Source: a virus. From it: DNA of 20,310 nucleotides. Position numbers and translations under genes: made by a program. Location of the stretch: positions 1 through 20,310 of the IMG/VR virus record IMGVR_UViG_3300043567_000463, one strand, 5' to 3'. This document shows positions 13,939 through 15,344 of the stretch, one piece after another (position 1 is the stretch's first letter; the number at the start of each line of letters is the position of its first letter). The notes under the pieces are model-generated. The model was not told the DNA's origin. It saw only the letters and a list, made by a program, of their open reading frames with translations, and searched no databases.

Positions 13939-14240
13939 AGATAGACCTTGATCAATTCCAGCCGTGGCCGGAGATATGCGTTTACGTCTATGGAAAGGCG
14001 ACCATCTCATATGAATATGAGCCAAGCGACCCGGATGTAGGTTATAGGGGCGGCGTCACCTATCCAACGGTCGAATCAATAACGATTGAGGCGCACCTGT
14101 CCAAAGACACGGCGCAGACCATCGGCCTGGATCATCCCATGTTCGCGCCCATCGCCAAAATATTAGAGACGACTGATTATGCCGTCGAAGATTGTGAAAA
14201 CGACTGGGCGGATTATAACGCGCATGATTACGAAAACTGA
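13926..14240 (+). CDS. Hypothetical phage protein, 104 residues
   Basis: Two in-frame ATGs exist at 13920 and 13926. GGAGGT (13914-13919) touches the first and sits six bases before the second, so 13926 is the likely start. The protein is acidic and Tyr-rich: a beta-type first half (ICVYVYGKATISYEYEPSDP, TYPTVESITIEAHLS) and an acidic end (DYAVEDCENDWADYNAHDYEN, split as DYAVEDCENDWA and DYNAHDYEN). No known family is recognised. A small strongly acidic protein could act as a DNA mimic, but this is speculation. Confidence 0.78.
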   Translation: MRTIEIDLDQFQPWPEICVYVYGKATISYEYEPSDPDVGYRGGVTYPTVESITIEAHLSKDTAQTIGLDHPMFAPIAKILETTDYAVEDCENDWADYNAHDYEN

Positions 14241-14322
14241 CCTGATCGCCTTTGCCGTGGGGGCGGCGCTGGCTATCCCCGCGCTCGCCCTATTCGTAAC
14301 ATATCTACTGGGGGGCTTATAA
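14224..14322 (+). CDS. Tiny membrane protein, 32 residues
   Basis: ATG 14224 lies inside the end of the preceding gene (17-base overlap) and the stop codon overlaps the next ATG (TAATG). The product is MITKTDLIAFAVGAALAIPA, then LALFVTYLLGGL: a short N-terminal charged piece and one clear membrane helix of about 22 residues. The coupling on both sides supports translation. A small regulator or lysis-related role cannot be told from sequence. Confidence 0.6.
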   Translation: MITKTDLIAFAVGAALAIPALALFVTYLLGGL

Positions 14323-14576
14323 TGCGAGTGCTAATTGCTTGCGAGTTTAGCGGGACGGTGCGGGACGCCTTCACACGGCGCGGTCATTATGCCGTGTCAT
14401 GCGACCTGTTGCCGTCTGAAACGCCCGGCCCGCACCATCAGGGCGACGTGTCTATGATCCTGACCGATGGCTGGGATTTGATGATCGCGCACCCGCCCGG
14501 CCCGGACAGGTGGAAAGAACGGTCACGAACTTACGGAGGCGTCGCGGAAGCGATGGCGGCACAATGGGGAAAATGA
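14322..14576 (+). CDS. Internally deleted DNA methyltransferase-like protein
   Basis: 84 residues. The N-terminal 59 residues follow the SAM-dependent methyltransferase-like family known from phages: MRVLIACEFSGTVRDAF (SAM-site type motif I), CDLLPSETPGPHHQGDV (motifs II-III), WDLMIAHPP (motif IV). In full-length members HPP is followed by Cys-Thr and roughly another 130-150 residues. Here it jumps at about residue 59 to PDRWKERSRTYGGVAEAMAAQWG, which I recognise as the usual C-terminal end of the same family. The reading frame is intact, but the catalytic loop and the middle are gone, so methylation is unlikely. It is coupled by TAATG upstream and ATGA downstream. Confidence 0.85.
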   Translation: MRVLIACEFSGTVRDAFTRRGHYAVSCDLLPSETPGPHHQGDVSMILTDGWDLMIAHPPGPDRWKERSRTYGGVAEAMAAQWGK

Positions 14577-14707
14577 AGGACTATTTTGAGTTTAGCCAGC
14601 TCTTACACTGGCTGTCAGACGAAGCGCTTAACATCCTGCTGGAGACAGAGCGGGACGATTACCGCGCAAAGATCATCCAAAACGAGCTAGAGGCGCGCGG
14701 CAAATGA
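14573..14707 (+). CDS. Small protein, 44 residues
   Basis: ATG 14573 overlaps the previous TGA (ATGA) and has GGGGA just upstream; a longer frame from 14510 or 14564 is less likely. The product is MKDYFEFSQLLHWLSDEALN, then ILLETERDDYRAKIIQNELE and ARGK, a charged helical protein. It ends in an ATGA overlap with the next gene. No known family is recognised. Confidence 0.7.
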   Translation: MKDYFEFSQLLHWLSDEALNILLETERDDYRAKIIQNELEARGK

Positions 14708-14940: not shown

Positions 14941-15163
14941 GCCCGGCGGGGTCTTGACCCGCTGGAAGGTTGGGGAGGGGCTGTCGCTGCATCGGCGCGA
15001 TGGCACTCTCATAATGAAAATCCATGCGCCCTACGCTGACGAGCGTTCTGTCGTCACGGCGGCGCACGCCCTTAACTTCATGTTCAAGAGTCTGAAACAT
15101 GCGAAAGCAAGAGATGATCGAGGAGATTCGGGAGCTGATCGAGGAAACAGCCCGGAATCATAA
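14915..15163 (+). CDS. Hypothetical protein, 82 residues
   Basis: The likely start is ATG 14915, inside the upstream gene; an in-frame TTG at 14909 is a poorer choice. The product begins MLKLDLTTEPGGVLTRWKVG and continues LSLHRRDGTLIMKIHAPYAD and VVTAAHALNFMFKSLKHAK, a beta-rich start and a helical second half. The last ~20 residues (DDRGDSGADRGNSPES) are read from DNA that also encodes the start of the DnaA-like gene. No known family is recognised. Confidence 0.68.
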   Translation: MLKLDLTTEPGGVLTRWKVGEGLSLHRRDGTLIMKIHAPYADERSVVTAAHALNFMFKSLKHAKARDDRGDSGADRGNSPES

Positions 15164-15344
15164 CCTATCAACCGAGGCCCTGACCGGCCATAACCGGCGC
15201 AAGGGGGTCATCTGGCCCCGGTTCGAGATCATGTGGCGCGCGCGTAACGAGCTAAATGCGCCGCTCCAGCTCATTGGGCAAGTGCTAGGGGGCCGTGACC
15301 ATACGACGGTCATGCACGGGATCAAACGCTATGAAAATCGGTGA
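15099..15344 (+). CDS. Stand-alone DnaA domain IV (DNA-binding) protein
   Basis: 81 residues that correspond only to the C-terminal DNA-binding domain of the replication initiator DnaA. Residues 9-35 form the first helices, followed by the family's typical helix and the signature LGGRDHTTVMHGIKRYE (63-78), which in DnaA makes base contacts with the TTATCCACA box. There is no AAA+ ATPase and no domain I-II, so it cannot itself melt an origin. It may recruit or block host DnaA or act as a regulator. TATCCACA motifs occur about 3 kb upstream, near the candidate origin. It overlaps the previous gene by 65 bases. Confidence 0.88.
   Translation: MRKQEMIEEIRELIEETARNHNLSTEALTGHNRRKGVIWPRFEIMWRARNELNAPLQLIGQVLGGRDHTTVMHGIKRYENR

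Follow-up and report, generated by a model that had tools for sequence, protein, structure and literature searches.

A very recent 294-bp in-frame deletion in a phage C5-type DNA methyltransferase gene, very probably a still-open pseudogene

The stretch of DNA analyzed in this study (the window) comprises positions 1 to 20,310 of the virus record IMGVR_UViG_3300043567_000463. On its plus strand, at positions 14322..14576, a phage DNA methyltransferase gene of the C5 type survives as an 84-codon remnant, having lost 294 bp internally without a change of frame; the product of this open reading frame is MRVLIACEFSGTVRDAFTRRGHYAVSCDLLPSETPGPHHQGDVSMILTDGWDLMIAHPPGPDRWKERSRTYGGVAEAMAAQWGK. The retained 5' part (14322..14492, codons 1-57, MRVLIACEFSG...WDLMIAH) contains a motif I-like SAM-site region, the deletion junction (14493..14498) holds the 6-bp repeat CCGCCC, of which one copy remains, at the place where 98 codons are missing, and the retained 3' part (14499..14576) encodes GPDRWKERSRTYGGVAEAMAAQWGK, followed by the stop codon. 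The remnant is flanked on the same strand by a small hydrophobic gene upstream (14179..14322; 47 aa, ending in LLGGL), with which it shares a TAATG overlap at 14320-14324, and by a downstream gene (14573..14707; 44 aa, beginning with MKDYFEFSQLL), with which it shares an ATGA overlap at 14573-14576. Further along, at 15099-15344, the window encodes an 81-aa protein that consists of a stand-alone DnaA domain IV helix-turn-helix (PF08299, E 2.2e-16) and has no ATPase part.

Residues 1-59 of the remnant match the DNA methyltransferase family phrog_757 (profile length 247, E 1.5e-22), its 25-aa tail matches the end of the full-length members of this family, and residues 53-83 align with the final part of phrog_27471. 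The latter family (93 aa) was considered as a possible short-form family and rejected, as its profile covers residues 89-181, the C-terminal half, of this very enzyme. Members of phrog_757 are orphan C5-type enzymes, among them gp12 of phage P-SSP7 and the proteins of Burkholderia phage Bcep1 and Paracoccus phage Shpa; they resemble the remnant over residues 1-59 and the last 25 residues, and are normally of about 180-235 codons. The family is absent from both Pfam and NCBIfam, and searching PDB sequences by profile gave no meaningful match, so that it could be identified by fold only and the fold comparison carries corresponding weight. The AlphaFold model of the full-length relative L002, built with 40 sequences (pLDDT 86.8, pTM 0.85), aligns with DNMT3A (Z 11.4, 175 residues, rmsd 3.3) and M.HhaI (Z 11.3, 177 residues, rmsd 3.5), and on the basis of this model the full-length family is a compact cytosine-C5 methyltransferase. 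The full-length relatives have the fold and the PPC and ENP motifs in common with these two enzymes, whereas the phrog_757-type protein is much shorter (182 aa) and has a very small target-recognition part.

The window product, in contrast, is devoid of any catalytic elements. Cys60 (of HPPC) and Asn100 and Pro101 (of ENP) are invariant in all 40 full-length relatives compared, and all three fall inside the missing part. After the deletion the window reads HPPG in place of HPPC, so that the catalytic Cys of the PPC motif (motif IV) is absent; the ENP/ENV motif (motif VI) lies within the missing 98 codons, and the target-recognition part was deleted together with them. When the structure of the 84-aa form was predicted, its N-terminal half was plausible and moderately confident, and the junction was poor (pLDDT below 50 at residues 64-68); a fold search with this model gave no confident match, the best hit being an unrelated epimerase (E 0.007).

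When aligned at the nucleotide level with the nearest full-length genes (L002-L006, L008, and L009, each of 182 codons), the remnant shows a loss of exactly 294 bp, or 98 codons, in frame. This agrees with the initial annotation, which had described the N-terminus of a methyltransferase running up to WDLMIAHPP and continuing in frame into the C-terminal segment of the family, with the frame and the overlaps with both neighbors intact. The short repeats suspected at the junction are also present, in a sharper form than the CCCG/CCGCC originally suggested: the 294 bp are delimited by two copies of a single 6-bp repeat, CCGCCC, the 5' copy lying in the context CAC-CCGCCC-TGC of the parental gene and the 3' copy in ATG-CCGCCC-GGC. 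Only 0.24% of the possible placements of a deletion of at least 60 bp in the parental gene would have microhomology of at least 6 bp. The missing 294 bp were not found elsewhere in the window.

The closest relatives, the viral contigs L002, L003, and L004, are 100% identical to the remnant over amino acid residues 1-59, and its last 25 residues are nearly identical to those of the nearest intact phages. The remnant differs from L002 at eight of 177 nucleotides 5' of the junction and at four of 81 nucleotides 3' of it; one changed codon is nonsynonymous and the rest are synonymous. In comparison with seven relatives there is one private substitution, a synonymous T to C change at 14534, and the retained 5' part has none. 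As this is the only private substitution and is synonymous, the deletion is very recent; for the same reason the dN/dS ratio since the deletion is unusable.

It is improbable that the full gene is present in the phage and that the contig dropped 294 bp by an artefact of assembly, amplification, or chimera formation. The junction is seen in just one contig, as such an artefact might produce; however, a simple repeat collapse would not yield it, since the 6-bp repeat is too short and the k-mers of metagenome assemblers are far longer than 6 bp. Moreover, the two flanks are equally close to one and the same parental type, which argues against a chimera or a junction of two diverged strains, and this gene has suffered independent deletions elsewhere, in other contigs as well as in the genome of a bacterial isolate.

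The 84-residue length is not a regular form of this family. The spans of 325 distinct homologues with both ends present are 507-708 nt, the exceptions being three further homologues with large internal deletions and a mis-paired tandem copy (L068:2395-3588, in which the intact gene is preceded, about 600 bp upstream, by a truncated 75-codon duplicate of the methyltransferase start). The same short form was looked for in other viral contigs, and neither the exact-junction pattern nor a looser gap pattern detected the window junction in any of them. The sole match to the exact-junction pattern, L082, is due to chance and lies outside any methyltransferase frame. Three contigs (L083-L085) conform to the looser pattern, with WDLMIAHPP and DRW spaced about 20 codons apart, and the census lists no large deletion among them. 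Among isolate phages 103 records were matched, and the candidates examined (Shpa, phi3LM21, MetMV, DB virus 2, PSA11, Swim, and PfAC08) have annotated open reading frames of about 183-227 codons.

To sample the locus independently of the methyltransferase, we anchored it with a DNA pattern that matches the beginning of the downstream gene (MKDYFEF/MKDYYEF), and then inspected the region upstream. Among the 69 usable contigs, 11 have an intact gene, 56 have no gene of this type immediately upstream, one is L469/L346 with the remnant described below, and one is L428, which on its reverse strand retains approximately the last 46 codons only, just upstream of the MKDYFEF gene, where they are joined on behind a different small upstream gene. 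In many contigs without the methyltransferase, the hydrophobic LLGGL gene directly precedes the MKDYFEF gene. In two others (L462:2116-2730 and L481:3583-4197) an unrelated DPPY-type DNA methyltransferase (phrog_11619, E 1.6e-43) is found directly upstream of the MKDYFEF gene, which suggests that the slot may be exchangeable between methyltransferases. Gene loss, remnants, and the DPPY replacement thus mark the slot as an accessory one for methyltransferases, which have been lost and replaced there repeatedly, and the methyltransferase gene is dispensable in this phage group. Among the annotated genes in variable islands of phage genomes, orphan methyltransferases were reported to be the most common type, and deletion-bridging reads were found in nine of 51 cases in metagenomic phage islands (PMC7468147). 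The flexible orphan methyltransferases of that study are likewise present, absent, or replaced among close relatives, and deletions were found; it deals with gene-level variation, whereas here a single intragenic deletion is resolved to the base. Our literature search for internal in-frame deletions in phage methyltransferases found nothing on the point.

Other homologues are damaged as well. L060 has lost 80 codons (116 versus 196) and keeps the PPC motif, its relatives L267-L269 being 100% identical over residues 1-97; L242, from the isolate genome of Tanticharoenia sakaeratensis, has an internal in-frame deletion and a length of 60 codons; and in L346/L469 a larger internal deletion joins FKRH to IHKMPPS, with a TAA stop before the end, leaving a 50-codon remnant. 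Smaller defects, single frameshifts or stops, were seen in L061, L128/L311, L150, L173, L193, and L267; some of them may be sequencing errors. All four large internal deletions (the window, L060, L242, and L346) keep the frame, against a chance expectation of 1/81. This pattern may reflect selection on the stub, selection for leaving the overlapping downstream gene unimpaired, or a search bias, and is only suggestive: our search queries favored alignments contiguous in frame, and since this bias toward in-frame deletions is real and L346 later gained a stop codon, frame-keeping is weak as evidence.

We therefore consider the remnant to be, very probably, a degraded allele of an accessory C5 methyltransferase gene that arose by microhomology-mediated loss and is now a still-open pseudogene. 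The initial annotation had offered two options, a recent pseudogene of this kind and a truncated protein retained, for example, to bind SAM or DNA; the former is favored because the gene is accessory, sister phages show both stages of decay and full absence, and the remnant is too young to show selection. Compared with intact close relatives, parts essential for catalysis are missing; the preserved open reading frame, start, and overlaps and the moderately confident N-terminal prediction speak against a pseudogene, and so, if only suggestively, does the frame-keeping of all four large deletions. The catalytic Cys, the ENP motif, and the target-recognition region went together in a single deletion between the two CCGCCC copies 294 bp apart, which may have arisen by replication slippage or end joining. 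The remnant protein would have lost the ability to methylate DNA, and the phage DNA would presumably be left open to the cognate restriction enzyme. As in the sister phages, the gene is probably being lost. Its frame may have stayed open since the event is too young for more damage, and it may survive because an in-frame deletion would leave the translation of the overlapping downstream gene, putatively coupled to it, undisturbed.

A second reading, that the in-frame deletion was selected and the phage retains the 84-aa product as a small functional protein, which for example binds SAM or DNA or interferes with a host methyltransferase, seems to us very improbable, and no positive evidence for it was obtained. 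The intact open reading frame, the overlaps, and the N-terminal Rossmann-like segment speak for it, as does the fact that three more internal deletions of the same gene kept the frame. However, the ends of these deletions are all different and one contains a stop codon, the window junction occurs in no other record, the model of the 84-aa form lacks a confident structural match and is poorly predicted at the junction, and the sister phages manage without the gene entirely. An ordinary dying gene rather than a new small protein is most likely. A broader version, in which phage C5 methyltransferases are repeatedly selected for in-frame gutting and Rossmann-like stubs keep a non-catalytic role, is extremely doubtful; were it true, such stubs might sequester SAM or interfere with host methyltransferases or restriction.

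Regarded as a degraded allele, the remnant represents the loss of an accessory methyltransferase in a phage caught almost in the act; the junction at base level, the intact parental form, and other stages of decay in sister phages are all in view. It provides an example of how fast accessory phage methyltransferase genes turn over, and alone it alters no general view.

Two further variants of the family concern the catalytic Cys itself. In L053 (3001-3543) and L201, HPPR stands in place of HPPC, so that the Cys is replaced by Arg in genes otherwise intact and full-length; judging from this substitution, both are possibly catalytically dead full-length forms. In Roseicella sp. DB1501 (L253:535-2196, 554 codons), an intein is inserted exactly at the catalytic Cys (HPP/CFAAGTLVLTKDGH...VVVHN/CTALCNSG), with Hint (PF13403, E 2.1e-8) and LAGLIDADG (PF14528, E 3e-4) matches, and the enzyme should be active solely after intein splicing.
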